Shown here in pieces: positions 13,361 to 42,932 of a stretch of 64,000 bases of DNA. This DNA comes from Candidatus Rifleibacterium amylolyticum. GTDB taxonomy: Bacteria > Muiribacteriota > Ozemobacteria > Ozemobacterales > Ozemobacteraceae. Location: contig JAACJG010000017.1 of NCBI GenBank assembly GCA_009917695.1, positions 62,001 through 126,000 of the forward strand, in the 5' to 3' direction. How positions within the stretch are numbered: position 1 is the stretch's first letter; each line of letters begins with the position of its first letter. The position numbers were made by a program, and so were the translations under genes. The notes below the pieces were generated by a model. That model ran no database searches, had not been told where the DNA came from, and was given only the letters and a program-made list of their open reading frames with translations.

Positions 13361-13373
13361 GAAGACGCGGATT

Positions 13374-14404: not shown

Positions 14405-14561
14405 TTCTGTGACAAACTGATTGTATAGAATGTTTACATTTTACTGCTAACTCGGGCTCTCGGCAGAGTTAGGCAGCTCTTACGGCTTCAGCCGTAAGAG
14501 CTGCGGATCCCTTTAGGGACTCAACGCTACAACTCTCGCCAGACGAGAGCGATGGTGACTA
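14402..14561 (+). mobile_element. Partial copy (C) of the TA-flanked inverted-repeat element
   Basis: TAGTTCTGTGACA at 14402 resembles the element end TAGTCCTCTGTCACA with a two-base deletion and one change. From about 14447 the sequence follows element B at 63.6 kb in the same orientation: CGGGCTCTCGGC, GTTAGGCAGCTCTTACGGC, a TTACGGC-TTCA-GCCGTAA hairpin, then CGCTACAACTCTCGCC. It is cut off at 14561, where full element A begins in the opposite orientation, so A probably inserted into this older copy. Confidence 0.6.
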
Positions 14562-14951: not shown

Positions 14952-16030
14952 TAGTTCTGGGGTTTGAGGGATTCGATGTAGTGCATGACAGCCAGAACCG
15001 AGTCGAATTCTTCGTCGTAAGCCGGCAAAAAGGTCGGCGACCCTGGCAGAGCCTCGGGTTTAACCTTTAACAGAGCTTCGAGGAACTTTTCGCGCAGATT
15101 GATCGGGCAGTCCTGACGGCAGACGATGACATCCGAAGGTATTTCGTTAGTTTTGCCAAGAATGATTATGCGTTCGAGCTGGGCTTTGCTGAGCTTTTTC
15201 AGAGTTTCTTCGAGACAGACGCCCGAATCGACCTTGCCTTCGAACACAGCGCGCAGCACGTTGTCGTGGTTTTTCAAAAAATAGACTTTTGAATGCTTGT
15301 GTGGGTCAACGCCAATCTCTTTGAGCAGATAGAGGGGGTAGATGTAACCACTGGCCGACTCAGGGTCTACGAATGCAATCGAGCTGCCCTTGATGTCTTC
15401 GAGGCCCTGCACCTTGCCTTTGGCAGGCGCGATAAAAACACCGCGATAGGCGGTGGCCTCACCAAACTTGGCTTTAGCAACCGGCATCAGGTGATCCTGG
15501 TCGCGCCGGTTCAGATAGGCAGTCGGACCGACCCAGGCGAAGTCGATGTTACCACGGGCAAGCGCATCGAGAATGCTGGCGTAGCTGTTGCGGTTCGACA
15601 CCAGACGAACCTCTTTGGCGCCTGTCTCCTTTTGGAGAAAACGCAGCAGCGGCACGGCCTGCGTCATCATGTCGCGCATGCTCAGATAGGGGATGCGGCC
15701 GAAACGGATGCTTTTTTCTTCGAGTTTGATTGGCTCTCCAGCCGGCAGAGCGGGCGGACGCGGAGCGGCAGCAGGCTGCTGGTAGCTGTCGCCGGCGTCG
15801 GCGCTTTCCCCGCTGTCTGACTGGTAATCGTCGCCAGGGTAATCAGAAAAATCGTATTCAACGTCGTCTTCGTAGTAGCCACCGCGAAAAAAGTCCTGCT
15901 CTTCTTCGTAGTTGGGGTAATCATCGCTGTAAAAGTCGGAGGCGTCCTGAGCGACAACGGCTGAGAACGGCAACAACAGGCTCGCACACATAAAGACGAG
16001 AAGCAGGCTGATTCTGAAAGCAAATTTCAT
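14951..16030 (-). CDS. PhnD-like periplasmic phosphate/phosphonate-type binding protein
   Basis: The start is at MKFAFRISLLLVFMC (GGAG nine bases upstream; 359 residues), with a signal peptide cut near AVVAQ-DA. An unusual acidic tyrosine-rich linker (residues about 30-90: DFYSDDYPNYEEEQDFF and similar) precedes a substrate-binding domain. That domain contains GRIPYLSMRDMMTQAVPLLR, NIDFAWVGPTAYL, DPESASGYIYPLYLL, KVDSGVCLEETL and SDVIVCRQDCP, the PhnD/PtxB family layout. No permease or ATPase is adjacent, so it may serve as a sensor or act with a distant transporter. The stop codon is formed by the end of element A. Confidence 0.82.
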   Translation of the reverse strand: MKFAFRISLLLVFMCASLLLPFSAVVAQDASDFYSDDYPNYEEEQDFFRGGYYEDDVEYDFSDYPGDDYQSDSGESADAGDSYQQPAAAPRPPALPAGEPIKLEEKSIRFGRIPYLSMRDMMTQAVPLLRFLQKETGAKEVRLVSNRNSYASILDALARGNIDFAWVGPTAYLNRRDQDHLMPVAKAKFGEATAYRGVFIAPAKGKVQGLEDIKGSSIAFVDPESASGYIYPLYLLKEIGVDPHKHSKVYFLKNHDNVLRAVFEGKVDSGVCLEETLKKLSKAQLERIIILGKTNEIPSDVIVCRQDCPINLREKFLEALLKVKPEALPGSPTFLPAYDEEFDSVLAVMHYIESLKPQN

Positions 16031-16103
16031 AAGTATTGTCTCCTGGCAGATAAGCACGAAACTTATTCTGCGATTAATATCTATTTTTTTCGGCGCGGAC
16101 TGA

Positions 16104-16181
16104 ATTATAACTCATCTGCGCAAAATTTGCTGCATGGTCGTGCAGATTTTGCGAGCGCAGTCGCCGAGATTTGAGTATAAT
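16104..16181. promoter_or_regulatory. Divergent promoter region with central palindrome
   Basis: Between the divergent PhnD-like and PilT-like genes there is a minus-strand TATAAT (16109-16104) and a plus-strand TATAAT (16176-16181). Between them lies an imperfect inverted repeat, CGCAAAATTTGCTGCA (16119-16134) and TGCAGATTTTGCG (16141-16153). The position suggests an operator controlling both directions. Neither side shows a strong -35. Confidence 0.4.
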
Positions 16182-16219
16182 TCGTTCGATATCAGAAGAT
16201 TAAAAGGCGGGAAGATTTT

Positions 16220-18034
16220 ATGCGAGTACTCGAGCGCTCACCCGAGGTTCTCAGCGAGGCTTACAAAGCATTTGACACCAACCCATTTTTTGAGCCACTA
16301 AGCGATGCTCAACGCGACCTGGTTATTGAAAAGGCCGGCACCATCGAAGCTTACACTGATGGCGAATTCATTCTCAAAACCAGTGACCCGGCGGATTTTC
16401 TTTTTGTGATCATTTCCGGGCAGGTAGCGGTTGTAGTTGGCGAAGGTGAGGACCAGATGGAACTTACCTGCCTCGAGCGCTCTCAGATGGTTGGCGAAAT
16501 GGCAGTCATTCTCGAAGAAAAGCGCACGGCCTCATGCATTGCCCGCGGCGAAACGGTTATTCTAAAACTGGCGCGCGAGGTGTTTCGCAAGGTGCTGACA
16601 GCGGTGCCTGAGGCTGGTATGTCGATGATGCGCATGCTGGCCGAACGCCTAAAAAAGACATCGAGACCGCCGGTACATCGTGATTTCAAAGGCGACGCTG
16701 CGGTTCCGCCAGTTGAAGTGCTGCGCCTTATTCCCATCGGATTTATGCAGCGCCATCGCGTCGTGCCGGTGCGAAAGCAGGAAAACAAGCTGCTGCTCGG
16801 CTATTGCGACCGCATGGACGACAATCTGCTTGCCTCGGCTGCGCAACTCTTGCCAAGCATGAAAATAGAACCGGTAGCTATCGAAGCCGCCTATTTCGAA
16901 AAAATCATGCAGAGCTACGGCGGTGATGCCGCGGCCGAACCAGCGGCAATTGGCGGTTCCGGTGCACAGCATATCGACGATCTGCTCAAACGCCTGGTCG
17001 CAGAGGGCGGTTCGGATCTACATCTTTCTGCCGGACAGGTTCCGCGCTGGCGTATTGATGGCAGAATTCTACCCATCGCCGGTTTTCTCAAGCTGGCACC
17101 AAATGAGGTGTTTAAGCTGGTAGCGCCGATAATGCGTCCCGAGTCGGTAGAAAAATTCAACAAAAGCGGCGACGAAGACTTTGCTTACGCGATGGACAAG
17201 CACTCGCGCTTCCGCATCAATCTGCTACGCGATTCTAACGGTGTCAGCGCGGTTTTTCGTCATATTCCGAATACCATATTCACTCTTGAAGAACTTGGAA
17301 TGCCTGATGTTCTACGGCGCTGGGCCGAGTCGCCCAAAGGCCTCGTTCTGGTTACCGGCCCGACCGGCAGCGGCAAGAGCACTACTCTGGCTGCGATGGT
17401 CGATCATATCAACCGCACTCAGGAATGCCATATCCTGACCATCGAAGACCCGGTCGAATTCGTGCATCAAAGCCGAAAATCGCTGGTCAACCAACGCGAG
17501 GTCGGCGTACACACAGAATCGTTCTCGCGAGCCCTGCGGGCGGCATTGCGCGAAGATCCTGACGTAGTGCTGGTCGGTGAAATGCGTGATCTGGAAACCA
17601 TCTCGATGGCACTGGAAACAGCCAATACCGGACATCTGGTACTGGCCACTCTTCATACTTCTACAGCGATCAGCACAATAAGCCGCATTGTCGATCAGTT
17701 CCCGGCCGAGGCGCAGGAACAGATCAGAACCGGTCTGGCTGACAACCTGCTCGGCGTCTGCTGTCAGACGCTCTGTCGCAAGATCGGTGGCGGGCGCGTT
17801 CCGGCACTCGAAATTCTGGTAATGGATTACGCAATGGGCAACATGATCCGCGAAGGTCGCACTCACATGCTGCTTACCGCCATGACCACCGGCCAGAGTC
17901 GCGGCAACCGTCTGCTCAACGATGACCTCGCCAGACTTGTACAGTCAGGCAAGATTACCAAAGAAGAGGCACTCAGCAACGCCGTCGATCACGCCGACAT
18001 GGCGCGCCGGCTTGGCATGGGTAAAGCAAACTGA
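16220..18034 (+). CDS. PilT-like ATPase fused to cyclic-nucleotide-binding and MshEN-like domains
   Basis: A 604-residue protein with three parts. Residues about 20-145 form a cNMP/Crp-type sensor (DGEFILKTSDPADFLFVIIS, then GQVAVVVGEG and ERSQMVGEMAVI). Residues about 155-235 resemble the GspE/MshE N-terminal domain (IPIGFMQRHRVVPVRKQENK). The rest is a PilT-type secretion ATPase: GGSDLHLSAGQVPRWRIDG, Walker A GPTGSGKST near 380, EDPVEF Asp box, LVGEMRDLETI Walker B and LATLHTSTA. PilT proteins drive pilus retraction. Most PilT lack an N-terminal sensor, so nucleotide control of twitching or uptake is suggested (inference). The gene is divergent from the PhnD-like gene. Confidence 0.88.
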   Translation: MRVLERSPEVLSEAYKAFDTNPFFEPLSDAQRDLVIEKAGTIEAYTDGEFILKTSDPADFLFVIISGQVAVVVGEGEDQMELTCLERSQMVGEMAVILEEKRTASCIARGETVILKLAREVFRKVLTAVPEAGMSMMRMLAERLKKTSRPPVHRDFKGDAAVPPVEVLRLIPIGFMQRHRVVPVRKQENKLLLGYCDRMDDNLLASAAQLLPSMKIEPVAIEAAYFEKIMQSYGGDAAAEPAAIGGSGAQHIDDLLKRLVAEGGSDLHLSAGQVPRWRIDGRILPIAGFLKLAPNEVFKLVAPIMRPESVEKFNKSGDEDFAYAMDKHSRFRINLLRDSNGVSAVFRHIPNTIFTLEELGMPDVLRRWAESPKGLVLVTGPTGSGKSTTLAAMVDHINRTQECHILTIEDPVEFVHQSRKSLVNQREVGVHTESFSRALRAALREDPDVVLVGEMRDLETISMALETANTGHLVLATLHTSTAISTISRIVDQFPAEAQEQIRTGLADNLLGVCCQTLCRKIGGGRVPALEILVMDYAMGNMIREGRTHMLLTAMTTGQSRGNRLLNDDLARLVQSGKITKEEALSNAVDHADMARRLGMGKAN

Positions 18035-18063
18035 TTGTCGTCAATCGGCCAACGTGATAAAAT
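18035..18063 (+). promoter_or_regulatory. Candidate sigma-70 promoter
   Basis: TTGTCG (18035-18040) and TAAAAT (18058-18063) are separated by 17 bases, matching consensus at four and five positions. They lie just after the PilT-like stop and 35 bases before the ATG at 18098. Confidence 0.5.
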
Positions 18064-18097
18064 GTTTATATGAGCTTTAACGAAAGGGCGCTGATGT

Positions 18098-18895
18098 ATG
18101 AAACGTCTTAACGGAACTGTAATATTTCAAGCTCTTATGACGCTGGCGATTTTTTCGCTGGTTTTGCCGGCCGTGCTTTTTGCGGCTGAATACAAAGTTG
18201 GCCCTTATACTCTCGATGTCGATGTGCGTTCGAGCCTGATGCAGGTTATTCCGCACGCTTATGTCAGGTGCCGGCTGAGCGGTAATACCATAAAAATATC
18301 GGCCTCAGCACCCGGATATGTCGCACAGACAGATGAAATTACGGTCAAGCCGGGTCAGCTGATTTATCCGGTTATTATCAGGCTGCCCGACAAAAAAGTC
18401 AGTCTCGAGGTGATGACCTTTGATTACAAACCAATCGTGTCGGCCTATTTCGACCGCTATCAGGGCGGCACCCCGACCGACGATTACGCGATCAACCTTT
18501 ATCTGCCGATAAAGAGCTGGCCGCACCCCAAGCCTCAAAACGTAAAAGTGAACCAGCCCGGCTATGGCTGGCCGATTCAGAAGACCTGCGAAATCAGCGT
18601 TTTTGCTGATTTTTATAAGGTACGCATGCTGGTCGATCGTGCTGTTTTAGATGATCCCAAGAATGAGCTGCTGATTTACGTAAATACTTCGGAAGAAATA
18701 AGTGTTGCAGCAGCTGAGCAGTGGTTACTGACGCTGGCGAGGCTCGAAGCGAACGACCGACAGATGGCAGAACAGCTGGCCGGGATTCTGGCAGCGGTAA
18801 TGCCTGTCGCCGAATTCAGCGTTTCGCCGCTTCCCCGCTCGATTGCAGCAGCTGTCACCCTTAAACGGCGCTTCAAAGAGCTGCACCGCGACTAA
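18098..18895 (+). CDS. Secreted protein with PEGA/carboxypeptidase-regulatory-like beta domain
   Basis: A 265-residue protein with a signal peptide (LMTLAIFSLVLPAVLFAAEY). After it comes a short beta domain, GNTIKISASAPGYVAQTDEI then TVKPGQLIYPVIIRLPD. This resembles PEGA or carboxypeptidase-regulatory-like repeats, in which a GY motif precedes a conserved valine strand. The C-terminal half is helical and unrecognised. A candidate promoter precedes it and GAAAGG lies upstream of the ATG. A surface or periplasmic role is likely; no enzyme motif is seen. Confidence 0.55.
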   Translation: MKRLNGTVIFQALMTLAIFSLVLPAVLFAAEYKVGPYTLDVDVRSSLMQVIPHAYVRCRLSGNTIKISASAPGYVAQTDEITVKPGQLIYPVIIRLPDKKVSLEVMTFDYKPIVSAYFDRYQGGTPTDDYAINLYLPIKSWPHPKPQNVKVNQPGYGWPIQKTCEISVFADFYKVRMLVDRAVLDDPKNELLIYVNTSEEISVAAAEQWLLTLARLEANDRQMAEQLAGILAAVMPVAEFSVSPLPRSIAAAVTLKRRFKELHRD

Positions 18896-19047
18896 CCTGC
18901 GACAACCGCCTGAATATTGCAGGAAGCCGGGATATTGGCTGCCCGCAACTCAGCTTTACCATAATTCATCGCTACTGGCGATATCATATTGCGGAATCTT
19001 CCAATTGCATTATGATTATTAAATACGGTCGGTACAAAGAGGTAATT

Positions 19048-20544
19048 ATGAATAAACGACATGCAATTAAGGCTTTGCTGGTCGTTCTGCTGGCGGCGGC
19101 GGTGAACCCGGCGGTGGCCTGGGGACCGGTCAGTCATATTTCGTTGTCTTATGAAGCCGGAGTGAAGAACGGGTTTCCAGTGAGCGATGATCTGCTGGGA
19201 GCTTATCTGGCCGGCTCGACTGAGCCTGATGTCGGTCTCGACGATGGCAAGAGCGAAGACTATGGCGTCTACCACAGTGAAGACTTCGCCAAGGCCATGG
19301 AAACCGTTGCAATGAGCAAGGAAAGCCCCGACCGCGAGATTCTGCTTGCCCGTGCGGCCGGCATGCGCAGTCACATGGCCGGCGACTCAGCGGCACACGG
19401 CAAAACCGGTTATGCTGAAGCCAAGATCATGTTTCCTGATATTCAGAGCGGCCTGCCCAAACATACAACCAACGAGCTTATCGTCGACATGATCATGTAC
19501 GATCGCAATAAAGAGGCTCTTAAAAAACAGAGCCTCAACTTTATCGATGTCGATACGCTTATAGAGATCCGCAAAGAATACAGTCGCATGACCGGCAAAG
19601 AACTCAAAAACGACCGTGATGCGCTCAAAAAAGAACTGCTCAATCATCGCGCCATGGTACTTACAGAACTGAGCCTGGCCCATCATCTTTCGAGCTCTGA
19701 CCCAGCCAAACTAAGCCAGATGAAAGAAGAATATTCGGATCTCAATCTCGGCACCACTGACGGAAATGGCGCCGACAAGGCCGTTGCCAGAATTGCCGAA
19801 CAGGCGAAATCCAGCGAAAACCTCAGCAGCTTCAAAACCACCAATAAAGGCTTTAAAATCAAGGATTACCTCAACAATTCACTGCTGGCAAAAAGCATGC
19901 AGGCACTCGAACGCGGCGCACTCAAGCTGACTAAATCGTCGGCGATACGTGATTCGCTTCAGAGTTTCGCAGTCGGCAAGGTAGAAGCCGGCAGAAACAA
20001 GGCTTTCGTCAATTTCGGCGTCAATCTGCTCAATAAAGATCTCAGCTTCAAGCAGGCGGTCGTGCTCGCCGGCAAGGCTACCAGCGGGTATCCCGAAGAC
20101 CAGGCTCAGAAGCTGGCTTATCTGGAGATCGAGGCCGAAGCTCTCAAAGCCCAGCGCGACAAGGCGCAGGCAGACTACAACAACCGTCCCTGGTGGAAAT
20201 TCTGGCTCTATTTCACCAACTCCGACAAAGAGAAATACGAAAAGCTCGAAGCTCAATATCAGGCAAAACTGCGTGAAATCGACACTATCCGCGCTCAGAT
20301 TGCAGCCGATGCGAGTGTCACTTTGGTTTCTGATGCTGATTATGCTGCCGCCGTCAGTGAATGTGCCGAAAAAGCTGCCCAGAGTGATACAGCAGCCGGA
20401 CTCGCCGACCTGCAGGCCGCCGTCGATGCTGCCTACAAAAAATATGTAGCCGCCGCCGAAACTCAGAATCAAGCTGCTGCCAAGGCCGCCGAGCAGGAAC
20501 TGAATCAGGCCAGGGAAAATCTCAAAGCCGCCATGCAGCACTGA
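19048..20544 (+). CDS. Secreted zinc-dependent phospholipase C-like protein with helical C-terminal extension
   Basis: The start is at MNKRHAIKALLVVLLAAA, with GAGG upstream; 498 residues. The signal peptide ends at AVA-WGPVSH, leaving Trp as the mature N-terminus. This is characteristic of zinc-dependent phospholipases C, where that residue's amino group binds zinc. Further candidate ligands are in AYLAGSTEPDVG (Asp), YGVYHSEDF (His), MRSHMAGDSAAHG (H-xxx-D-xxx-H) and KHTTNELIVDM (H..E). After about residue 220 the chain is helical and Ala/Lys/Glu-rich, with WWKFWLYF near 385. The catalytic half probably hydrolyses phospholipids outside the cytoplasm. The long extension is unusual for the family. 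TATGAT at 19011-19016 may be the -10. Confidence 0.72.
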   Translation: MNKRHAIKALLVVLLAAAVNPAVAWGPVSHISLSYEAGVKNGFPVSDDLLGAYLAGSTEPDVGLDDGKSEDYGVYHSEDFAKAMETVAMSKESPDREILLARAAGMRSHMAGDSAAHGKTGYAEAKIMFPDIQSGLPKHTTNELIVDMIMYDRNKEALKKQSLNFIDVDTLIEIRKEYSRMTGKELKNDRDALKKELLNHRAMVLTELSLAHHLSSSDPAKLSQMKEEYSDLNLGTTDGNGADKAVARIAEQAKSSENLSSFKTTNKGFKIKDYLNNSLLAKSMQALERGALKLTKSSAIRDSLQSFAVGKVEAGRNKAFVNFGVNLLNKDLSFKQAVVLAGKATSGYPEDQAQKLAYLEIEAEALKAQRDKAQADYNNRPWWKFWLYFTNSDKEKYEKLEAQYQAKLREIDTIRAQIAADASVTLVSDADYAAAVSECAEKAAQSDTAAGLADLQAAVDAAYKKYVAAAETQNQAAAKAAEQELNQARENLKAAMQH

Positions 20545-20579
20545 TAAACTCTTGCCGGCGTCTGCGAGAACCCACCGTA

Positions 20580-20610
20580 ACTGTTAGGAGACAACGGTCT
20601 CCAAAACAGT
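20580..20610. other. Strong intergenic stem-loop
   Basis: ACTGTT then GGAGAC, an AACG loop, GTCTCC, then AACAGT: a 12-bp stem interrupted by a small asymmetric bulge. There is no T-run after it, so it is not a typical terminator. It sits between the phospholipase-like gene and the Mut7-C gene and may act in mRNA end protection or read-through control. Confidence 0.5.
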
Positions 20611-20672
20611 CTCATCGCTCGTGTGATCTTGCTTACGGTATGCATGCGCCGTAGTGAGCGGGTTTGTATGAA

Positions 20673-30365: not shown

Positions 30366-30614
30366 ACAAAAGAGCAGTATCTGTTAAGCCTCTATCTTTT
30401 GAGATCATTCATGGTATTAGCCACAACAACAAGTCTATTTTGGCGCACAACGGAATAATGCGGGAAGAAATTTGCATGATCTGAAATTTGATCTTTTGCT
30501 GCCTCGATGTATAGTCGCATTCTGAGCTAAATCGAGCATCTTTACAAAATGGGGGGTTAACATTTCAAGTCGAATGTGTTAGGGTAGTCAAAAAATGACG
30601 TGAGAGGCGCTGCT

Positions 30615-32852
30615 ATGGCACAATTGATTGCCCATGTTAAGCAAAACAGTGAGGGGAAATGGGATTCTCCGCATGATTTGATTGCTCATCTCAATAATAC
30701 TGCCTGCCTTGCAGAAAAATTTGCCAGTGCATTCAAGTCAGAGAATTGGGCAAAGACCCTTGGTTTACTACATGATGCCGGCAAAAGCACAGAAAACTGG
30801 CAGGAATATCTTAAGGCCAAAAGCGGTTATGGCTACGATTCAGAAGCCCATCTTGAAGGCAAAGTTGGCAAACTGGATCATTCAAGCATCGGTGCCAGAC
30901 TTGCCGAAGAAAAGTTCAAGGCTTGCGGCCGTTTTCTGGCATATTGCATTGCCGGTCATCACGGCGGTCTGCCAGACTTCTTTTCAAGCGAAAATACCGG
31001 TTCCGGAGCTTTGCAGAACCGACTGGCCCGAACATCGATTGATGAAGTTGCCAAAGAGATATGTGCTCTGGCCGATTCTGCTGTTTTGTCGAGGCCACCA
31101 TTTGCATTTCCAGATGGACTCTCGGCTTCGCTGTGGATCAGAATGTTGTTTTCATGCCTTGTCGATGCAGATTTTCTTGACACAGAAGCATATATGGACC
31201 CTGATAAAGCGTCTTTAAGATGCAATTTCGCCAAAATAGAAGAGCTTCTCAAAACGTTTCGTGCCTATATGCAACAATTTGCTGTAAATGCAGAAAAGAC
31301 CCGAGTTAATGCCATTCGCCAGAAAATATTGCAGGACTGTATCGATGCTGCAAGCCAGGAGAAGGGAATTTTCTCTCTTACGGTTCCAACTGGTGGTGGC
31401 AAAACCCTTTCGAGTCTGGCATTTGCCTTGGAACATGCAAAAAAACATGGGCATAATAGAATCATTTACGTGATCCCTTACACCAGCATCATCGAGCAGA
31501 ATGCCGATGTTTTCAGGCGGGCTTTGGGGGCCGATAACGTAGTGGAGCACCACTCAAACCTTGATTCAGAAGATGCTACCCCGGAAATGAGATTGGCCTC
31601 GGAGAACTGGGATGCACCGGTTATTGTTACGACAACAGTGCAGTTTTATGAGTCTCTTTTTTCTGCGAAGCCTGGAAGATGCAGAAAACTTCATAACATT
31701 GCCAATTCTGTTGTCATTCTTGATGAAGCTCAGTTGATCCCACCTGATTATTTGAAACCGATACTGAAGTCGCTTCAGTTGCTGGTTGATTATTATTCGG
31801 TTTCTCTCGTTATCTCTACGGCAACTCAACCGGCACTGGAAAGCCGACAAGTCGGTCAGGAAAAGTTCGAAGGCCTCACTGCCGGTAAAATACGAGAGAT
31901 TATTACAGATGTAGATTCTTTGTATGAGGATTTGAAAAGAGTTGAGGTAAATCTGCCGGAAAGTTTTGACGAGGCACTGTCTTTGTCGGAAATAGCCGCG
32001 CGTTGTTCCCAGCACGACAGGGTGCTTTGTGTCGTTTCAGATCGAAAAAGCTGTCGCGAATTGCACAAGCTCATGCCGAAAGGCACGATACATCTTTCAG
32101 CCCTGATGTGTGGGCAGCATCGCTCAGACAGGATTACTCAGATCAAAGAAAAACTGAAGACTGATGAACCGGTAAGGGTTATCAGTACACAGCTCGTAGA
32201 AGCTGGCGTAGACTTGGATTTTCCTGTGGTTTATCGTGCAATCGCCGGCCTTGATTCAATAGCCCAGGCAGCTGGCCGATGTAACCGTGAAGGATTGCTG
32301 GAAAAGGGAGAGGTTTTTGTATTTGTGAGCGAGAAAAAATCGCCACCGGGAATATTGCGAAAAGCTTCTGAGACGACACAGAACATTCTTTATGGCAGAC
32401 GTGATGACCCTTTGACGCGAGAGAACTTTGACAGATTTTTCAAAGAACTCTATTGGAAAGCAAATTCTCTTGACACCAAAGATATCGTAAGCTTGTTGTC
32501 ACCAGATATAGACTGCTTTGGGATCCAGTTCAGAACAGCTTCTGATCGCTTCAAGTTGATCGATGACTCAATGCAGAAAGCAATAATTGTCAAATACGGA
32601 AAAGGTGAAAAATTGCTCGAAGATATCAGGCTAAATACCGGAAATCCTGCATGTCTCAAGCTGTTATTGCGTAAGTTGCAGCGTTACTCGGTAAACGTCT
32701 ATACCAACGATTTCAACCGGCTTTTGCAAAGAAGGTCTATCGTTGAGGTTGTTCCTGGAGTTTTTGCGCTGACAACTTCAATGGAATATTCAGACGATAC
32801 TGGTTTGCTGGTAGATGAAAATTCTGCAGACCCAGAATCTTTTGTAATGTAA
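30615..32852 (+). CDS. cas3: Type I-C CRISPR helicase-nuclease Cas3
   Basis: I prefer ATG at 30615 with AGAGG upstream; a GTG at 30600 is the alternative. 745 residues. The N-terminal HD nuclease has TLGLLHDAGKSTENWQEYL and AYCIAGHHGGLPD. The helicase part has VPTGGGKTLSS (Walker A), VILDEAQLIPPDY (DEAQ box), ISTATQPAL (motif III), and STQLVEAGVDLDFPVVYRA then AQAAGRCNREG (motifs V-VI). Cas3 is recruited by Cascade and unwinds and degrades target DNA. It is the first gene of the locus; about 250 bases upstream hold no gene and no strong promoter. Base use becomes visibly more AT-rich from here. Confidence 0.95.
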   Translation: MAQLIAHVKQNSEGKWDSPHDLIAHLNNTACLAEKFASAFKSENWAKTLGLLHDAGKSTENWQEYLKAKSGYGYDSEAHLEGKVGKLDHSSIGARLAEEKFKACGRFLAYCIAGHHGGLPDFFSSENTGSGALQNRLARTSIDEVAKEICALADSAVLSRPPFAFPDGLSASLWIRMLFSCLVDADFLDTEAYMDPDKASLRCNFAKIEELLKTFRAYMQQFAVNAEKTRVNAIRQKILQDCIDAASQEKGIFSLTVPTGGGKTLSSLAFALEHAKKHGHNRIIYVIPYTSIIEQNADVFRRALGADNVVEHHSNLDSEDATPEMRLASENWDAPVIVTTTVQFYESLFSAKPGRCRKLHNIANSVVILDEAQLIPPDYLKPILKSLQLLVDYYSVSLVISTATQPALESRQVGQEKFEGLTAGKIREIITDVDSLYEDLKRVEVNLPESFDEALSLSEIAARCSQHDRVLCVVSDRKSCRELHKLMPKGTIHLSALMCGQHRSDRITQIKEKLKTDEPVRVISTQLVEAGVDLDFPVVYRAIAGLDSIAQAAGRCNREGLLEKGEVFVFVSEKKSPPGILRKASETTQNILYGRRDDPLTRENFDRFFKELYWKANSLDTKDIVSLLSPDIDCFGIQFRTASDRFKLIDDSMQKAIIVKYGKGEKLLEDIRLNTGNPACLKLLLRKLQRYSVNVYTNDFNRLLQRRSIVEVVPGVFALTTSMEYSDDTGLLVDENSADPESFVM

Positions 32853-32863
32853 GAGGAGGAAGA

Positions 32864-33574
32864 ATGCATAACTGGTGTATTGAGGTCTGGGGCGACTATG
32901 CCTGTTTTACCCGCCCTGAAATGAAGGTTGAGCGGGTAAGCTATGACGTGATGACTCCATCGTCTGCCCGCGCTATTTTTGAGTCGATTCTCTGGAAACC
33001 GGCAATCAAATGGCACATAACAAAGATTGAAGTTCTGAACCCTATCAAATGGGTTTCTGTGCGACGCAATGAGGTTAAAAAAGTCGTTTCAAGAGGCGTT
33101 CCAGGTAAGACAAGTGGAATTTATATTGAAGATGAGCGTCAACAAAGAGCCGGACTTTTTTTACAAGATGTCAGATACAGAATTCACGGCTATTTTGAGT
33201 TTATTTCGCCTGAAAAGAGAATGCAGAAGCCTCCTGATGCACCAGAAAAGTGGGCAGACGATCAGGAAAAAAACACCGCTGCTGCCGCAGATGAAACAGA
33301 AGCTAAATACGCAGCGATGTTTGAGCGGAGGGCAAAAAAAGGCCAGTGCTTCAATCGACCATATCTTGGCTGCCGTGAGTTTTCATGCTACTTCAAGTTA
33401 GTTGATCCAGATAAACATGTGTCAAAACCTATTGAAGATACCAGAGAACTTGGCTGGATGCTCTACGATATGGATTTTTCAAATCCATTAGTGCCAATGC
33501 CGGCTTTTTTCAAGGCAACTATAAAAGGAGGCGTTATAAATACTGATCGTCGACAAATTGAGGTGCGTCAATGA
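32864..33574 (+). CDS. cas5: Type I-C Cascade subunit and crRNA endonuclease Cas5c
   Basis: A 236-residue RAMP protein: VWGDYACFTRPEMKVERVSY at the start, VMTPSSARAIFESILWKP, WHITKIEVLNPIKWVSVRRN, and a C-terminal DVRYRIHGYFEF then RPYLGCREFSCYFKLV with ELGWMLYDMDF. In type I-C the Cas5 (Csd5/Cas5d) protein itself cuts the repeat RNA and stays on the crRNA handle, because Cas6 is absent. GAGGAGG precedes the ATG. Its stop overlaps the cas8c ATG, so synthesis is coupled. Confidence 0.95.
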   Translation: MHNWCIEVWGDYACFTRPEMKVERVSYDVMTPSSARAIFESILWKPAIKWHITKIEVLNPIKWVSVRRNEVKKVVSRGVPGKTSGIYIEDERQQRAGLFLQDVRYRIHGYFEFISPEKRMQKPPDAPEKWADDQEKNTAAAADETEAKYAAMFERRAKKGQCFNRPYLGCREFSCYFKLVDPDKHVSKPIEDTRELGWMLYDMDFSNPLVPMPAFFKATIKGGVINTDRRQIEVRQ

Positions 33575-35364
33575 TTTTGCAGGCATTGAAAGAGTATTAT
33601 GATCGTAAGGTTGTCGATGGTTCGATTGCTCGTGATGGCTGGATTCGGGGCGGGTTAGATTTTTTGTTGGTTCTTGATTTGGACGGTAAATTGCTGAATA
33701 TCAATGATTTAAGGGAATCAAATGGCCGGAAGAAGGTTCCGCGTTTATTAAATTTACCAAACATTGGAAAGCAGGCATTAAAGCATACTAATAGCGGCAA
33801 AGATGCAAATTTACTGTGGGATAATGCGTCGTTTGTTTTTGGGCTTGGCGACAAAGGTCAATTACGATTACAAAGTATGATTTCAACAATTGATAACTGG
33901 TTCGGAGAACAGAGTGATCCCGGTATCAAAGCAGTACATGCCTTTCTGACCAAAGGACTTAAGGATCGCAACCATTTCAACCTTGCTTTGGAGCATCCAG
34001 AATATGGTGAGACGTTCATGGAAGGTAGCGTAAAAATCAGTTTTCGAGTGCTTGAGACAAATTACAATGTTGTTTTCGATTCGCCAGTGGTTGTTAAAAC
34101 ATTAGTTGGGGTAGGTAATTCTAGTAATACAGAAAAAGACGGGATTTGTTTAGTAACGGGAGAACAAAATGTTCCAATCGAAATGACTCATTCTGTAATT
34201 AAAGGTGTTTGGGGGGCGCAGTCTTCTGGTGCATGTATTGTAAGTTTCAATAATGATACTTTTAATTCATATGGGAAAACTCAGTGTCTAAATGCACCAG
34301 TTAGCAAAACTGCTGCATCTCAATACAGTAAAGCAGTTAATTTTTTACTCGATTCAACAAGTCAGCGAATGCAGGTCGGGAATACGTCTGTGGTTTTCTG
34401 GTCAGAAAGGCGATCATCGTTTGAATCAGACTTCTCATTCTTTTTTAATGAGCCGGAAAAGGACAATCCTGATTCTGGAACGCAAAAGATAAGAGTCCTG
34501 TTTGAATCAGTAAAGACAGGGGCATATATGGAGGATAACGGAGAACAAAGATTTTACGTTTTAGGATTAGCCCCGAATGCTGCACGAATTGCCATCCGTC
34601 TATGGAAAGTTGGAACTATTTCAGAATTTGCTGACAACATCAGGCGGCATTTTGAAGACTTAAGAATCATAAAACCAGATTATGAACCTGAATTTTACTC
34701 AATATGGAAATTGTTGGCTAACGTATCGTCACAAGATGATATTGGCAACCTTCCTCCAAAATTGGCTGGTGACTACATCCGAGCTATTTTGGAAGGTTTT
34801 CCATATCCAACCACTGTATTACAAGCTGTTTTGGGACGTATTCGCTGTGACGTAAAGGATATGAAAGGGAAGCCAAAAGATCGGATCAATTCTGTTAGAG
34901 CAGCAATAATCAAATCATACCTGAATCGTTATCAGCATTTTTATGACAAGAAACATAAGGAGTTAACTATGGCATTGGATATCAATCAACCTTCAGTTGG
35001 TTACCAGCTTGGCAGATTGTTTGCAACGCTGGCAAAAATTCAGGATGAGGCTCAACCGGGAATTAATGCCACCATTCGTGAAAGATTTTATGGAGCTGCT
35101 TGTGCTTCTCCGGTAACGGTTTTTGCCAATCTGCTGAAACTGATGAAGCACCATCTTGCCAAGCTGCCTAACAAAGGCAGAGCAATAACCTTCGATCGAC
35201 TCGTTGGCGAGATTATGAGCCATCTTTCAGATTTTCCGGCTCATCTGGATTTGCATGAGCAGGGCAGATTTGCGATTGGTTATTACCACCAGTGGCAGGA
35301 TTTTTTCCCTAAATCCAATGCGAAAGGCACTTCAGAAAAAACTTTAGAGGCAGGAGCAAACTAA
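33571..35364 (+). CDS. cas8c: Type I-C Cascade large subunit Cas8c (Csd1)
   Basis: A 597-residue protein, the usual Csd1 size. It opens with ILQALKEYYDRKVVDGSIAR and has the family-typical GICLVTGEQNVPIEMTHSVI, then GACIVSFNNDTFNSYGK, SQYSKAVNFLLD and VVFWSER, FYVLGLAPNAARIAIRLW, and a helical C-terminus. Cas8c recognises the PAM and helps recruit Cas3. The last quarter doubles as the small subunit from an internal start at 34969. The gene is AT-rich compared with the flanking chromosome, consistent with transfer of the locus. Confidence 0.95.
   Translation: MILQALKEYYDRKVVDGSIARDGWIRGGLDFLLVLDLDGKLLNINDLRESNGRKKVPRLLNLPNIGKQALKHTNSGKDANLLWDNASFVFGLGDKGQLRLQSMISTIDNWFGEQSDPGIKAVHAFLTKGLKDRNHFNLALEHPEYGETFMEGSVKISFRVLETNYNVVFDSPVVVKTLVGVGNSSNTEKDGICLVTGEQNVPIEMTHSVIKGVWGAQSSGACIVSFNNDTFNSYGKTQCLNAPVSKTAASQYSKAVNFLLDSTSQRMQVGNTSVVFWSERRSSFESDFSFFFNEPEKDNPDSGTQKIRVLFESVKTGAYMEDNGEQRFYVLGLAPNAARIAIRLWKVGTISEFADNIRRHFEDLRIIKPDYEPEFYSIWKLLANVSSQDDIGNLPPKLAGDYIRAILEGFPYPTTVLQAVLGRIRCDVKDMKGKPKDRINSVRAAIIKSYLNRYQHFYDKKHKELTMALDINQPSVGYQLGRLFATLAKIQDEAQPGINATIRERFYGAACASPVTVFANLLKLMKHHLAKLPNKGRAITFDRLVGEIMSHLSDFPAHLDLHEQGRFAIGYYHQWQDFFPKSNAKGTSEKTLEAGAN
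34969..35364 (+). CDS. cas11c: Internal small subunit Cas11c, translated within cas8c
   Basis: Inside cas8c, AAGGAG (34957-34962) lies six bases before an in-frame ATG at 34969. This would give a 131-residue helical protein, starting MALDINQPSVGYQLG and sharing the Cas8c stop. Independent translation of Cas11 from the 3' end of cas8c has been shown experimentally for type I-C systems. Here the ribosome site and frame are directly visible, and the codon position is right. The product would form the Cascade belly and stabilise the R-loop. Confidence 0.8.
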   Translation: MALDINQPSVGYQLGRLFATLAKIQDEAQPGINATIRERFYGAACASPVTVFANLLKLMKHHLAKLPNKGRAITFDRLVGEIMSHLSDFPAHLDLHEQGRFAIGYYHQWQDFFPKSNAKGTSEKTLEAGAN

Positions 35365-36483
35365 ATGACTACTATCAGCAAACGCTATGATTTCGTCCTC
35401 TTTTTCGATGTCCAGGATGGCAATCCAAATGGTGACCCTGATGCAGGGAATCTCCCCCGTGTCGATGCTGAAACGGGTCACGGCCTCGTTACCGATGTCT
35501 GCCTTAAGAGAAAGGTCAGAAACTTTGTTGGGTTGAGTAAGAGTGAGCAGGCACCTTATGATATTTATGTGAAAGAAAAGGCGGTGTTAGGAAGAGCGCA
35601 TGTTGAAGCATTTAAAGAATTGAAAATTGAATTAGGAGAAGGCGGCAAAAAAGAAATCTCCAACAAAATAGCAGAGGCTTTATCTGATCTAGCTCTGCCG
35701 GAAGGATTAAGTGTTTCAGAAGAAGAAAATGACAGTGGAGAGGTAAAAGCATTCTTGAATGTTGCTTTCGATTTCGACAAAAAACTTCTGGCTGAGTTTT
35801 GGAAAGAGAATAAAACATTTGCGACAAGCAATAAAGAGGCGAAATCATTGATTGACAACTTATCAAAGTCAGTTAAATCAAGAAAACCAAAGGCTGAGGA
35901 GACCGAACAAGGTCGAAAATTCATGTGTGAAAAATTCTTCGATATTCGAGCTTTTGGTGCAGTTCTATCCTTAAAATCGGCTCCCAATTGTGGCCAAGTT
36001 CGTGGACCAATTCAATTTACTTTTGGTCGATCTGTCGAACCGGTTATTGCCCTTGAGCACAGTATTACCCGGATGGCTGTTGCCACGGAAGCCGAAGCAG
36101 AAAAACAAGGTGGAGGCAATCGCACGATGGGCCGAAAATCCACTGTGCCCTATGGTCTCTACCGTGCTCATGGATTCATTTCAGCCCCATTAGCTGAACA
36201 AACCGGCTTTTGCGAAGAAGACCTTCACCTGTTTTGGGATGCTCTTAAGAACATGTTTGAACACGATCGCTCTGCCGCCCGTGGCATGATGGCAACGCGT
36301 GGACTTATTGTTTTCGAGCACAACTCAAAAATGGGCAATGCTCCAGCCCACGACCTGTTTGACAGAGTCTCAGTGAAGCGGGCTACCCCGGAAAATACTC
36401 CCGCTAGAAAATTCAGTGACTACCGCATTGAAATTAATGAGACTTCAATGCCAGAAGGCGTAAGAATAATCAGAATGGTATGA
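35365..36483 (+). CDS. cas7: Type I-C Cascade backbone Cas7c (Csd2), enlarged
   Basis: A 372-residue RAMP protein starting [20 protein letters not shown], then [15 protein letters not shown] and [13 protein letters not shown], then [19 protein letters not shown] and a C-terminal [20 protein letters not shown]. These are diagnostic of Csd2, the multi-copy subunit that lines the crRNA. Typical members are about 290 residues. Here roughly 80 extra residues (about 90-175, Lys/Glu/Ser-rich) sit between [12 protein letters not shown] and the CEKFFDIR motif. It begins immediately after the cas8c stop and overlaps cas4 by ATGA. Confidence 0.95.
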
Positions 36484-37196
36484 GTGCTTGCCTGCTGCCG
36501 GTCACCATGCCGGCAGCAGGAAGTTCATTATTAAGCATGTTTGACGAAGAAAATTGTATTCAAATTTCTGGCCTGCAACATCTGGCTTTCTGCAAACGCC
36601 AGTGGGGGCTGATTCACATCGACCAGGAATGGGAAGAGAATCAGCTGACTGCAGAAGGTCGAAACCTGCATGAGCGGGTTGACGAAGGCTATCAGGAATT
36701 CCGAAAAGGCCTCCGGCAATATTCTGGCTTATATGTTAAAAGCCTGAAGTTTGGCATTAACGGCAGAACTGATCTAATTGAAGCGATAAAATCTGATGAT
36801 GGCGCCTGTAACAAAATCCAGATGCTGGGGCTCGAAGGTCGCTGGAGCCTTTATCCAGTTGAATTCAAGCGCGGTAAACCGAAAAGTTATGATGCAGATT
36901 ATATTCAACTTTGTGCCCAGGCCCTGTGTCTGGAGGAAATGACCGGAACCGAAAAAAACTCTGGTGCCGTATTTTATTGGCAAATCCGCAAGCGAACCGA
37001 GGTTGAATTTGATACAAGGCTTCGCGAAAAGACCATATCTCTGATAATGCTGGCTCATGAACTTCTGGAAAAGGGCCTGGTACCTCCGCCAGAATATGCT
37101 CAACATTGCCGGTCGTGCTCATTATTGGAGGTCTGTATGCCAAAAAAGCTGAATCAGAGCAGGCTGATCAGCTACCGACAGGAGCTGTTAGGTTGA
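36480..37196 (+). CDS. cas4: CRISPR adaptation exonuclease Cas4
   Basis: A 238-residue RecB-fold iron-sulfur protein. Motifs are [20 protein letters not shown] (first cluster Cys, QW), GRTDLIEAI (motif II Asp), [11 protein letters not shown] (E-x-K), and [16 protein letters not shown] (three cluster Cys). Cas4 trims prespacers and sets PAM and orientation with Cas1-Cas2. The ATG at 36480 overlaps the cas7 stop. A later ATG at 36537 would give a start more typical of the family but has a poorly spaced ribosome site, so the first 19 residues are uncertain. Confidence 0.93.
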
Positions 37197-38227
37197 AACA
37201 GATTAGAAACACGCTATACGTGACAATCGAAGATTCGTGGGTTCATAAAGACGGCGAAACTATTACCATCCACAAGGATCACAAAAAGATCGGCCAGTTT
37301 CCGGTTCACATGATCGGCGAACTGGTCTGTTTCGGATACGGCATAAGCGTCTCACCTCAGCTTGTAGAGCATTGCGCCAAAGAAAAGGTTACCGTTTCCT
37401 ATCTTGACGGTATGGGCAAGTTTCTGGCCAGACTGCAGGGGCCGACACAGGGAAATGTTCTTCTTCGTCGGGCGCAATATCGACTGGCTGATGATCAGGC
37501 GAGTGCGGTAAACATTGCCAGATGTTGTGTTGCCGCTAAAATTCAGAATCAGAGATCGATTCTGTTGCGCCATCTGCGAAATCACGCTGGCTGCGAAGGC
37601 GAGTCGCAGATTCGTGATGCCTTGCAAAAGATGGAAATATCTCTGGATACTGCCAGAAAATGTAGTGATATGGTTTCTTTAAGGGGTATTGAAGGGGCCG
37701 CGGCTGAGGAATATTTCAGTGTTTTCGATTATCTTATTCTCGTTCCTGGCCCGGATTTTCGCTTTCATAAACGTAGTCGTCGGCCACCGATGGATCGAAT
37801 AAATGCACTGTTGTCCTACGCATATTCTATACTGGCCTTAGACATGAGATCAGCATTAGAAGCAGTTGGGCTCGATCCTTATGTCGGCTATCTTCACGTC
37901 GAACGTCCTGGCAGACCCGCTTTGGCTCTTGATCTGCAAGAGGAATTCCGGGCGCCGATAGCAGATCGGCTCGTGCTGAGTCTGGTTAATCTCAGACAGG
38001 TTAGCGCTTCAGGCTTTGCTGTTAAGCCCAATGGTGAAGTGGAAATGTCTGACGACACCAGAAAAACTTTTCTTACAGCCTGGCAAAAGAGGAAGCGCGA
38101 GGAAATCATGCATCCATTTTTTGATGAAAACATGGAAACCGGGCTGGTATATCTCGCTCAAGCCCGTTTGCTGGCAAAGCACATGCGTGGCGAACTCGAT
38201 TATTATCCGGCGTTTCTTTGGAGGTAA
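37193..38227 (+). CDS. cas1: CRISPR integrase Cas1 (subtype I-C)
   Basis: The start is TTG at 37193, which overlaps the cas4 stop as TTGA and has GGAG nine bases upstream. This gives 344 residues beginning [16 protein letters not shown], the usual Cas1 start; a longer frame to 37106 reads through cas4. The metal-binding residues are seen in LRGIEGAAAEEYF (Glu), GYLHVERPGRPALALDLQEE (His, Asp/Glu). Cas1 with Cas2 inserts new spacers at the leader end of the array. It is followed one base later by cas2. Confidence 0.95.
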   Translation: MKQIRNTLYVTIEDSWVHKDGETITIHKDHKKIGQFPVHMIGELVCFGYGISVSPQLVEHCAKEKVTVSYLDGMGKFLARLQGPTQGNVLLRRAQYRLADDQASAVNIARCCVAAKIQNQRSILLRHLRNHAGCEGESQIRDALQKMEISLDTARKCSDMVSLRGIEGAAAEEYFSVFDYLILVPGPDFRFHKRSRRPPMDRINALLSYAYSILALDMRSALEAVGLDPYVGYLHVERPGRPALALDLQEEFRAPIADRLVLSLVNLRQVSASGFAVKPNGEVEMSDDTRKTFLTAWQKRKREEIMHPFFDENMETGLVYLAQARLLAKHMRGELDYYPAFLWR

Positions 38228-38228
38228 T

Positions 38229-38519
38229 ATGCTGGTTTTAATTACCTATGATGTATCAACTGTTACTCCGGCAGGTCGCAAACGTTTGAACAAGGTTGCC
38301 AGGGCATGCAAAGACTATGGGCTTCGCGCACAAAAGTCGATTTTTGAATGCGAGATTGATCCGGCTCAATGGACTGCACTTAAAAACAAGCTTCTCGGCA
38401 TTATCAACGAAGAAGAAGATAGCTTGCGATTTTACTACCTCGGCTCTAACTGGGAAAGAAAAGTTGAGCACCATGGAGCTAACCAGCCACCTGATATGAA
38501 AGGTCTGCTGATGATATGA
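38229..38519 (+). CDS. cas2: CRISPR adaptation protein Cas2
   Basis: A 96-residue ferredoxin-fold protein, MLVLITYDVSTVTPAGRKRL, then CKDYGLRAQKSIFECEIDPA. The start ATG at 38229 is preceded by GGAGG; the same frame is open further upstream, but that part lies within cas1. Cas2 dimers bridge two Cas1 dimers in the integrase complex. It ends the cas operon. Confidence 0.95.
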   Translation: MLVLITYDVSTVTPAGRKRLNKVARACKDYGLRAQKSIFECEIDPAQWTALKNKLLGIINEEEDSLRFYYLGSNWERKVEHHGANQPPDMKGLLMI

Positions 38520-38562: not shown

Positions 38563-38682
38563 ATGATTGAAGTAAGGAAAACTGAAGTCTATCAGAAGTG
38601 GTTTGAAAGTTTGCAGGATACGAGAACGCTGGCTCGAATTCTGGTGCGAATTGAACGTTTGGCAGAAGGTCTGCATGAGTAA
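38563..38682 (+). pseudogene. Truncated HigB/RelE-type toxin (39-residue N-terminal remnant)
   Basis: ATG at 38563 opens a 39-residue frame, MIEVRKTEVYQKWFESLQD then RTLARILVRIERLAEGLHE, ending TAA at 38680-38682. It matches the first third of phage-type RelE/HigB addiction toxins, which start M-I-E-I-R-K-T and have a RARI-x-RI-x-RLA helix and normally run to about 100 residues. The part with the catalytic sheet is missing, and the antitoxin starts only three bases later, so a deletion rather than a frameshift is likely. It is probably inactive. Confidence 0.75.
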
Positions 38683-38685
38683 ACT

Positions 38686-38973
38686 ATGAAAAAAATTTTA
38701 TCAACAAAATATGATGTCGCTGAATATCTGCGCACTCCTGAAGAGATCGCTGCTTATCTTGAAGCAAGCCTTGAAGAAGGTGACGCTGCTTTTGTTACCA
38801 AAGCGCTGGGTGATATTGCCCGTGCGAAAGGAATGACAAAAGTCGCAAAGGCAGCCGGTCTTTCGCGTGAAAGTCTTTATAAGGCACTGTCTGGTGAAAG
38901 ATCACCAGGGCTTGATACCATTCTTAAGGTAATCAAAGCCCTTGGGATCAAACTTCATGCCGAGGCAGCCTGA
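38686..38973 (+). CDS. HigA-family addiction-module antitoxin (Xre type)
   Basis: A 95-residue protein. KYDVAEYLRTPEEIAAYLEA is the N-terminal toxin-binding segment, DAAFVTKALGDIARAKGMTK leads into a helix-turn-helix, VAKAAGLSRESLYKALSGER is the DNA-recognition helix pair, and ILKVIKALGIKLH closes it. This is the putative addiction antidote family that pairs with phage-type RelE/HigB toxins. Its partner toxin immediately upstream is truncated, leaving the antitoxin apparently intact and orphaned. It lies between cas2 and the array leader, so it could act as a local repressor (inference). Confidence 0.88.
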   Translation: MKKILSTKYDVAEYLRTPEEIAAYLEASLEEGDAAFVTKALGDIARAKGMTKVAKAAGLSRESLYKALSGERSPGLDTILKVIKALGIKLHAEAA

Positions 38974-39178: not shown

Positions 39179-42100
39179 GTCGCGCCCCCCGCGGGCGCGT
39201 GGATTGAAACCTTGTCGATTATCTCGACCTTGTTTCCGTCGTGTCGCGCCCCCCGCGGGCGCGTGGATTGAAACACGCGAAGGCCTCGGCCCAGATTTGG
39301 CCGGTCGTCGCGCCCCCCGCGGGCGCGTGGATTGAAACGGGTATCTGCCAACGCGGCCCGTCAGGCCGTCGTCGCGCCCCCCGCGGGCGCGTGGATTGAA
39401 ACTGTTGCGTCTAGCAGAATTTGCCCGGAAGAAAGTCGCGCCCCCCGCGGGCGCGTGGATTGAAACAGTAACAAGATCCATGTCGAGCAACATGGCGCGT
39501 CGCGCCCCCCGCGGGCGCGTGGATTGAAACTTTGTAAAGCTCGCCATCTGCATTGCGCTCACGTCGCGCCCCCCGCGGGCGCGTGGATTGAAACATCGTT
39601 GCCGGCTTTGGGCTTCTCTTCGTCGTGTCGCGCCCCCCGCGGGCGCGTGGATTGAAACTTGAGAACGACGGTGTTTTTTTGATCAGCCTTGTCGCGCCCC
39701 CCGCGGGCGCGTGGATTGAAACTCGCGATAAACCAGCAGGCCGAATCTGACGCCGTCGCGCCCCCCGCGGGCGCGTGGATTGAAACCGGAGGCAATGGCT
39801 TATCAGGCGGAGTATAAGGTCGCGCCCCCCGCGGGCGCGTGGATTGAAACAAGTATTCCCGCGCCCATCGAAACGCGGTCTGGTCGCGCCCCCCGCGGGC
39901 GCGTGGATTGAAACTTATTCGCCTGCTTAATGGCTTCTTCGGCCTGGTCGCGCCCCCCGCGGGCGCGTGGATTGAAACATCATCTGGTGGTGTAATATAC
40001 TCATCATCAGGTCGCGCCCCCCGCGGGCGCGTGGATTGAAACTAAGATACCAGCGGTAGACCCATTCGGCAGAAGTCGCGCCCCCCGCGGGCGCGTGGAT
40101 TGAAACCAAGAAGCTTGGCAAATATCGTAATGACGAAAGTCGCGCCCCCCGCGGGCGCGTGGATTGAAACCATGTCTTGCGAAGATGTATCTGCATCAAG
40201 GAGTCGCGCCCCCCGCGGGCGCGTGGATTGAAACGTCGTAGCGATGGTATTATTGAATCTGTAAAGGTCGCGCCCCCCGCGGGCGCGTGGATTGAAACCG
40301 TCCGACATGATCGGCGTTACCCCCAGCGCGGTCGCGCCCCCCGCGGGCGCGTGGATTGAAACAAAAGCTAAGGCATAACCATGCTTAACTACAAGTCGCG
40401 CCCCCCGCGGGCGCGTGGATTGAAACGACGGCTCAGAGCCTTGGGCGAGAACTAGCCCGTCGCGCCCCCCGCGGGCGCGTGGATTGAAACAAGTAGCGGG
40501 TGGGTTTTGGGGATTGTGGGGTGTCGCGCCCCCCGCGGGCGCGTGGATTGAAACAGAATCTGGTTGCGGTCTCCGTAGTGGCGCAAGTCGCGCCCCCCGC
40601 GGGCGCGTGGATTGAAACTGCTGCCTTCAGAATCTGGTTGCGGTTTCCGTGTCGCGCCCCCCGCGGGCGCGTGGATTGAAACAAGTAGCCTTATGATGTC
40701 GGCGCAAAAACCAGGTCGCGCCCCCCGCGGGCGCGTGGATTGAAACGTCAGCGCGTTGCCGCAAACGGGGCAGATTAGGTCGCGCCCCCCGCGGGCGCGT
40801 GGATTGAAACGGGTTACGCGTGAAGGGTGAGTCAATGATAAAGTCGCGCCCCCCGCGGGCGCGTGGATTGAAACGCATTGACAGAGCAGCAAAAGCTGCT
40901 TTTTTGGTCGCGCCCCCCGCGGGCGCGTGGATTGAAACGAAAACCCGTGCAGCTGGCACCGCTGAAACTTGTCGCGCCCCCCGCGGGCGCGTGGATTGAA
41001 ACGGCACTCCGACTGCTTTTCATATTTTTGATGTGTCGCGCCCCCCGCGGGCGCGTGGATTGAAACGAGATGCAAAATGCCAGATTCACCGTCGGCAAGT
41101 CGCGCCCCCCGCGGGCGCGTGGATTGAAACAGGCGAGCTCCGGTATTTGGGCGTTGATTTTGGTCGCGCCCCCCGCGGGCGCGTGGATTGAAACCATTAT
41201 CATTAGCACCGATACCAGTTGTCGGGGTCGCGCCCCCCGCGGGCGCGTGGATTGAAACGGCCAGATAGACATATTTAGAGCCGCCGTTGAGTCGCGCCCC
41301 CCGCGGGCGCGTGGATTGAAACTTGAAAAAAGCCAAAGCAACGCCCTGACTAAGGTCGCGCCCCCCGCGGGCGCGTGGATTGAAACGATAAAACGAGAGT
41401 CAGAAATGTTACGGCCAGGTCGCGCCCCCCGCGGGCGCGTGGATTGAAACACAAATCCTTTTTCGGACGTGAAACGATATCCGTCGCGCCCCCCGCGGGC
41501 GCGTGGATTGAAACCGTAGCCGGTGGAACTAATCGTCTGTAACCATGTCGCGCCCCCCGCGGGCGCGTGGATTGAAACTGAAGTGTCGCCATGTGATAAT
41601 ATTCCAGATGGTCGCGCCCCCCGCGGGCGCGTGGATTGAAACGCAAGGTGAAATAGGGCCGCAAGGGCCGCAGGGGTCGCGCCCCCCGCGGGCGCGTGGA
41701 TTGAAACGAAGAAATTGAAGCAAGAGACGCCAGCGGCAGGTCGCGCCCCCCGCGGGCGCGTGGATTGAAACAACGCATCAGGCGAATATTATCGCGGTGC
41801 TGCGTCGCGCCCCCCGCGGGCGCGTGGATTGAAACACAGTATCTGGTTCTCGGGCGTGCAAGCGCAACGTCGCGCCCCCCGCGGGCGCGTGGATTGAAAC
41901 TACATATGGGCGCGTCTGAATAAGCAGGTCGCGTCGCGCCCCCCGCGGGCGCGTGGATTGAAACCAAATCGCACCACAAATCGGCGGTTGATCTGCGTCG
42001 CGCCCCCCGCGGGCGCGTGGATTGAAACATCATACCAATCGTCGCCTCCAATGTAAACTGGTCGCGCCCCCCGCGGGCGCGTGGATTGAAACCGGTAGAA

Positions 42101-42923
42101 TAATCGAATTGCGCGACGAAATAGGTCGCGCCCCCCGCGGGCGCGTGGATTGAAACCTTAAGATCGGTAAATATAATTCTCCTGAAATGTCGCGCCCCCC
42201 GCGGGCGCGTGGATTGAAACAACATGACTAAGATGATTACCGGCCGAGAAGCGTCGCGCCCCCCGCGGGCGCGTGGATTGAAACTTGTTAGTCTGCTTAG
42301 TCATGTTTAAATCTCCGTCGCGCCCCCCGCGGGCGCGTGGATTGAAACGGGGAGTTTAACTTCCCACGCGTCAACAGCTGGTCGCGCCCCCCGCGGGCGC
42401 GTGGATTGAAACATAGCAGTTTTTGGTACCTGCGTCACAAACTTGTCGCGCCCCCCGCGGGCGCGTGGATTGAAACTCTTTTCCAGATCAGCTATTCGAG
42501 CCTCAAGGGTCGCGCCCCCCGCGGGCGCGTGGATTGAAACTGGCAGCACCGCGATAATATTCGCCTGATGCGGTCGCGCCCCCCGCGGGCGCGTGGATTG
42601 AAACGGCCTGGTAAAAGACGCAGCCGGCCTGGCGTTGTCGCGCCCCCCGCGGGCGCGTGGATTGAAACTCTTTCATCAACAGCAGCAGTTCAGTGCCCGG
42701 GTCGCGCCCCCCGCGGGCGCGTGGATTGAAACAGAATCTCTAGCCGAAAAAGTCAACGCTGCTGGTCGCGCCCCCCGCGGGCGCGTGGATTGAAACACGG
42801 ATTTGATCGAGAACGAGATCGACGCCAGGTCGCGCCCCCCGCGGGCGCGTGGATTGAAACGGGCCAAAGATCTGCCAGCTTGTCGTATTGATGTCGCACC
42901 CCCCGCGGGCGCGTGAGATGAAC
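39179..42923 (+). CRISPR. Type I-C CRISPR array, 59 repeats and 58 spacers
   Basis: The 32-base repeat begins GTCGCGCCCCCC and ends GTGGATTGAAAC. Its CGCGCCC / GGGCGCG arms form a seven-base-pair stem. I located 59 repeat starts; spacing is 64 bases throughout, except two intervals of 65. Spacers are therefore 32 bases, with 33-base spacers at 41643-41675 and 41836-41868. All repeats I read appear identical except the last (42893-42923), which has GTCGCACC and a decayed GTGAGATGAAC end. This marks the leader-distal end. Reading frames across the array are artefacts of the repeat. Individual spacers of interest are given in the findings. Confidence 0.98.
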
Positions 42924-42932
42924 AGCAGACTA

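Follow-up and report, generated by a model that had tools for sequence, protein, structure and literature searches.

Complementary, oppositely oriented spacers reportedly arise during adaptation by the type I-E CRISPR system of Escherichia coli, as Shmakov et al. are said to have found in 2014. Such pairs are reportedly spread over a population, and many are said to stem from two-way integration of one protospacer. In type I-F systems, which belong to another subtype and are without Cas4, spacers slightly shifted or wrongly oriented with respect to one PAM have been documented; flipping is rare there, affecting <0.5% of spacers, and is favored when the slip is at least 2 nt (PMC5059440). Primed adaptation in type I-F also yields spacers from both strands that are concentrated around the site targeted before (PMC4117759). 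The type I-C systems recognize a TTC-type PAM (PMC5071653, PMC7913775), at which the Cas4-Cas1-Cas2 proteins cleave precisely, a GAA on the 3' side being equivalent to a TTC on the 5' side (eLife 44248), and native type I-C priming draws spacers from both strands with the PAM GAA/TTC (PMC5071653). The type I-C array of Legionella pneumophila Toronto-2005 contains two natural spacer pairs with overlapping targets, and these have been read as primed re-acquisition (PMC5071653).

The window analysed here, a stretch of 64,000 nucleotides from Candidatus Rifleibacterium amylolyticum, contains a CRISPR array preceded by seven cas genes.

30600..32852, forward strand: cas3 (DEAD helicase, Cas3_HD; Pfam)
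32864..33574, forward strand: cas5c (PF09704)
33571..35364, forward strand: cas8c/csd1, the type I-C marker (PF09709, E=1.2e-160; TIGR01863, 485.3 bits against a cut-off of 218.65)
35365..36483, forward strand: cas7c/csd2 (PF05107)
36480..37196, forward strand: cas4 (PF01930; TIGR00372)
37193..38227, forward strand: cas1c (TIGR03640, type I-C Cas1c, 467.9 bits against a cut-off of 385)
38226..38519, forward strand: cas2 (PF09827; TIGR01573)
39179..42924, forward strand: CRISPR array of 58 intact 32-nt repeats GTCGCGCCCCCCGCGGGCGCGTGGATTGAAAC, a degenerate terminal repeat at 42893, and 58 spacers

The genes, called with Pfam or NCBIfam models, stand in the order cas3-cas5c-cas8c-cas7c-cas4-cas1c-cas2 at 30600-38519, upstream of the array (from 39179), and both Cas8c/Csd1 and Cas1c score above the curated cut-offs. 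The array is thus part of a complete type I-C cas locus. Its spacers are 32 nt long in 56 of 58 cases and 33 nt in the other two, and the terminal repeat carries six mismatches. Between cas2 and the array (38563-38973) lies an intact HI1420-type antidote gene (38686-38973), preceded by a 39-aa ORF that covers the HI1419 RelE/ParE toxin model (95 positions) only over positions 1-36; the HI1419-like toxin next to the array is apparently truncated, with its antidote kept.

Two spacers in the distal part of this array form the pair of interest.

41772..41803, forward strand: spacer 41, AACGCATCAGGCGAATATTATCGCGGTGCTGC, 32 nt, of which 41774-41803 is the reverse complement of 42543-42572
42541..42572, forward strand: spacer 53, TGGCAGCACCGCGATAATATTCGCCTGATGCG, 32 nt, the leader-distal partner of spacer 41

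The first-pass annotation had described 30 bases of these two spacers as exact reverse complements of each other, offset by two bases, and a repeat search bore out both the numbering and the coordinates: 41774-41803 and 42543-42572 form a 30-nt inverted repeat that is 100% complementary, with 739 nt between the arms. Each spacer starts directly 3' of an intact repeat. The first two bases of each, at the PAM-proximal 5' end, are not shared with the other, and merging the two spacers gives a 34-bp sequence, AACGCATCAGGCGAATATTATCGCGGTGCTGCCA. When the 58 spacers were shuffled 200 times, the longest word that two spacers had in common on opposite strands ranged from 8 to 14 nt, and the 30-nt complementarity is therefore not due to chance. 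The neighboring spacers 48 and 49 also have 12 nt in common on opposite strands before they diverge, and were set aside because agreement of 12-14 nt also arises in the shuffles. Across all 35 contigs (5.39 Mb) of the genome assembly, the sequence of spacers 41 and 53 has no third copy besides the two in the array. Eleven other spacers separate the two, which makes their captures separate events. Spacer 53 had been called leader-distal and older, and this holds: cas2 precedes the first repeat, and the gene order, the leader side at the 5' end and the degenerate last repeat together mark spacer 53 as the older of the two.

That the inverted copy was created by an assembly error or by recombination within the array is extremely improbable. 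The genome is indeed fragmented, its 35 contigs leaving some room for misassembly, but the repeats flanking both spacers keep their orientation, register and sequence, both copies stand in the regular repeat-spacer register, and the inversion of a spacer cannot create a two-base offset. An independently assembled relative, described below, moreover has a pair of the same kind.

The reading that best accounts for the pair is that spacers 41 and 53 represent two captures, at different times, of one 34-bp site of one invader, each made from a PAM on its own strand; from the sequence, we give it a probability of about 0.8. Each 32-nt spacer would have been cut from its own PAM, and two inward-facing PAMs 34 bp apart would leave an overlap of 30 bases, each spacer extending two bases beyond it at the 5' end. 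The invader site would then read as TTC-like bases, the 34 bp and GAA-like bases, such that PAM-type bases are expected as TTC/CTY directly 5' of AACGCATC and as GAA/RAG directly 3' of GCTGCCA. Spacer 53 would have been acquired first, and the later capture of spacer 41 may have been helped by priming or by interference-driven acquisition near an already targeted site, as the literature on other systems leads one to expect. The first-pass annotation had found a two-base slip strange for a system directed by PAMs, save where there is a PAM on either side. The exception that it named covers the case: inward-facing PAMs 34 bp apart yield exactly such overhangs, so the slip is not anomalous and would be a measure of the distance between the two PAMs. 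The PAMs of this pair are not readable within the array because the flanking bases fall outside both spacers; two-sided PAM-like bases are, however, readable in pairs of the relative.

Set beside its precedents, the pair resembles that of E. coli type I-E in consisting of reverse-complement spacers that probably come from the same site, and differs in that both spacers occupy one natural array and in an offset of two bases, which fits two PAMs. Its likeness to the Legionella pairs lies in the type I-C subtype and in spacers of different times that would be directed against overlapping stretches of one mobile element (PMC5071653). In Legionella, however, the element has been identified as LME-1, which showed mismatches to the older spacer, in keeping with re-acquisition after escape (PMC5071653), whereas the spacers of the present pair are identical over their overlap, lie on opposite strands and are known from the array alone. 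Such a pair is an ordinary and expected outcome of repeated spacer capture by a CRISPR system of this type and no new phenomenon; it does provide, from a phylum that has received little study, an example of a type I-C system that would have recaptured one invader site from both strands.

The earlier claim of two captures of one invader site, one from each strand, is thus supported as the best reading, but no invader was found in the collections searched. IMG/VR held no exact 27-mer match, three reading-frame wobble patterns were likewise without a credible target there, and a search of the same collection with three 17-mer cores gave loci matching at ≤25 of 34 bases at best, none of them a credible target. 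An exact 24-mer search of the GTDB genomes gave no match to the 34-bp site, blastn of the 34-mer against phages and plasmids gave no credible target, and 24 genomes of the family, its own included, held no protospacer for either spacer. A 28-nt match at 86% (E=1) to the major capsid gene of Tlsvirus phages was rejected as chance, since most of its differences alter the amino acid (QHRANMILI against QHRDNIRLM in the shared frame) and sit at codon positions 1 and 2. A 24-nt match in genome G023 spans the artificial junction of the doubled query and is irrelevant to the spacer.

Alternatively, the invader could hold two oppositely oriented copies of the site, as an inverted repeat or an invertible segment, with one spacer taken from each. 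The 34-mer is weakly hairpin-like, at -10.1 kcal/mol, and 4.5% of mononucleotide shuffles fold as well. This hairpin is, however, only the sixth most stable among the 58 spacers and thus not unusual, and a second copy is not needed to explain the pair, which renders this alternative very improbable. The hairpin was also considered as a structural reason for the choice of the site, and was dropped for its unremarkable stability.

A PAM can be read even where the invader is not at hand: if the start of one spacer falls within another, the second spacer shows the bases that precede it. Overlapping spacers within one array can in this way reveal a PAM although the invader is not known. The window offers one such case.

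40555..40586, forward strand: spacer 22, the first 22 bases of which lie inside spacer 23 with one mismatch, making the upstream TTC readable
40619..40650, forward strand: spacer 23, with CCTTC directly before the sequence in common with spacer 22

The TTC before spacer 22 is the only readable PAM-like case in the window. The same-strand, 22-base overlap of these neighboring spacers (40555-40650), with its single mismatch, suggests that they come from two variants of one invader.

Further cases come from the closest named relative by Cas1 (81% identical), the Candidatus Riflebacteria MAG nDJH14bin3 (L075, JADFXM010000002.1), which has a type I-C array of 119 spacers at 13031-20644. Six opposite-strand overlapping pairs occur in it, one near-complete (spacers 28/106, 31 of 32 bases, offset by one) and five partial. 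The trinucleotide readable before the six spacers of three opposite-strand pairs is CTC or CTT (CTY) in all six, against a background of 2.4% for CTC and CTT together among the trinucleotides of the L075 spacers, and pair 28/106 has a C at -1 on both sides. Altogether, PAM-like bases precede all eight readable spacers of the opposite-strand pairs, on both sides in four pairs. Putative two-sided PAMs are thus directly readable in this lineage, in pairs other than 41/53. What the TTC of the window, the CTY of L075 and the TTC-type PAM of type I-C have in common is a richness in pyrimidines; they do not amount to one exact motif.

These two-sided bases bear on a further explanation of pair 41/53, namely that only one side of the site carries a PAM and that one spacer was inserted backwards, giving a crRNA without a usable PAM. 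Such flipping is documented: spacers in the opposite orientation are reported from the type I-E system of E. coli (Shmakov et al. 2014), and type I-F shows it at the low frequency given above (PMC5059440). Had one processed 32-bp prespacer been flipped, however, the two copies would overlap over 32 bases, and not over 30 with two-base 5' overhangs. Cas4, which aids in setting orientation, is encoded in the window, and the PAM-like bases found on both sides in the L075 pairs also argue against a single PAM. We consider flipped integration unlikely, and capture from two PAMs remains the preferred reading.

The two Riflebacteria arrays are alike in subtype, in a near-identical repeat and in opposite-strand spacer pairs, including one of 31 nt in L075; they differ in that the L075 pair is offset by one base and the window pair by two, and in the many same-strand re-captures of L075, which the window is without. 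Six of the latter are exact or shifted by one base (8/22, 11/30, 19/114, 45/93, 59/117 and 64/110), and pair 41/65 of L075 is a further one with a single mismatch. Some copies are 33 nt long where their counterparts have 32 nt, which suggests that they were acquired independently. Taken together, the re-captures and opposite-strand pairs of L075 are more striking than the single pair of the window. A comparison set of 14 type I-C arrays, which together hold 594 spacers but form a small and unrepresentative sample, contained near-complete opposite-strand pairs in two arrays, both from Riflebacteria (30 nt in the window, 31 nt in L075). Two alphaproteobacterial plasmid arrays (L092, L093) showed one same-strand re-capture each, and another array (L102) had two adjacent spacers differing at two positions. 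The L075 array suggests that this lineage often recaptures invader sites from both strands, with PAMs that can be read. Among the partial or near-complete overlaps of the window and L075, seven are on opposite strands and one, a partial overlap, is on the same strand, all small numbers. During primed adaptation in E. coli, an internal PAM of the same orientation is avoided (PMC6282206), and by analogy such avoidance may perhaps underlie the opposite-strand excess.

As had been proposed, the crRNAs of spacers 41 and 53 could physically form a 30-base duplex: its predicted energy is -60.4 kcal/mol, against -31.6 for the next pair, and in a predicted fold of the isolated 865-nt precursor stretch all 30 base pairs are in place. 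In cells, crRNAs are bound by Cas proteins. That the two would pair in the cell and cut each other's supply, such that recapture costs immunity or acts as a control, is a model we regard as highly doubtful. The pair provides a natural test case for interference between complementary crRNAs, and known biology is not overturned by it. Self-attack on the array would be unlikely because both self-matches are flanked by GCG from the repeat, which is not a PAM, and because their mismatches, one for crRNA 41 against the DNA of spacer 53 and two for crRNA 53 against that of spacer 41, lie at seed positions 1-2. Against the invader, the two spacers would act as mutual backup: with a common target, different PAMs and seeds at opposite ends, a mutation in a PAM or seed would mainly escape one crRNA.

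Two other spacers of the array gave matches of their own. Spacer 39 (41643-41675) codes for collagen-like repeats; its 88% match (E=0.3) to the tail-fibre gene of a Mycobacterium phage is probably low-complexity similarity. Spacer 12 has a 26-nt match at 96% (E=2.7e-4) in another genome of the family (G003:C60:13556-13581, L046), where the target could be a host gene or a prophage.
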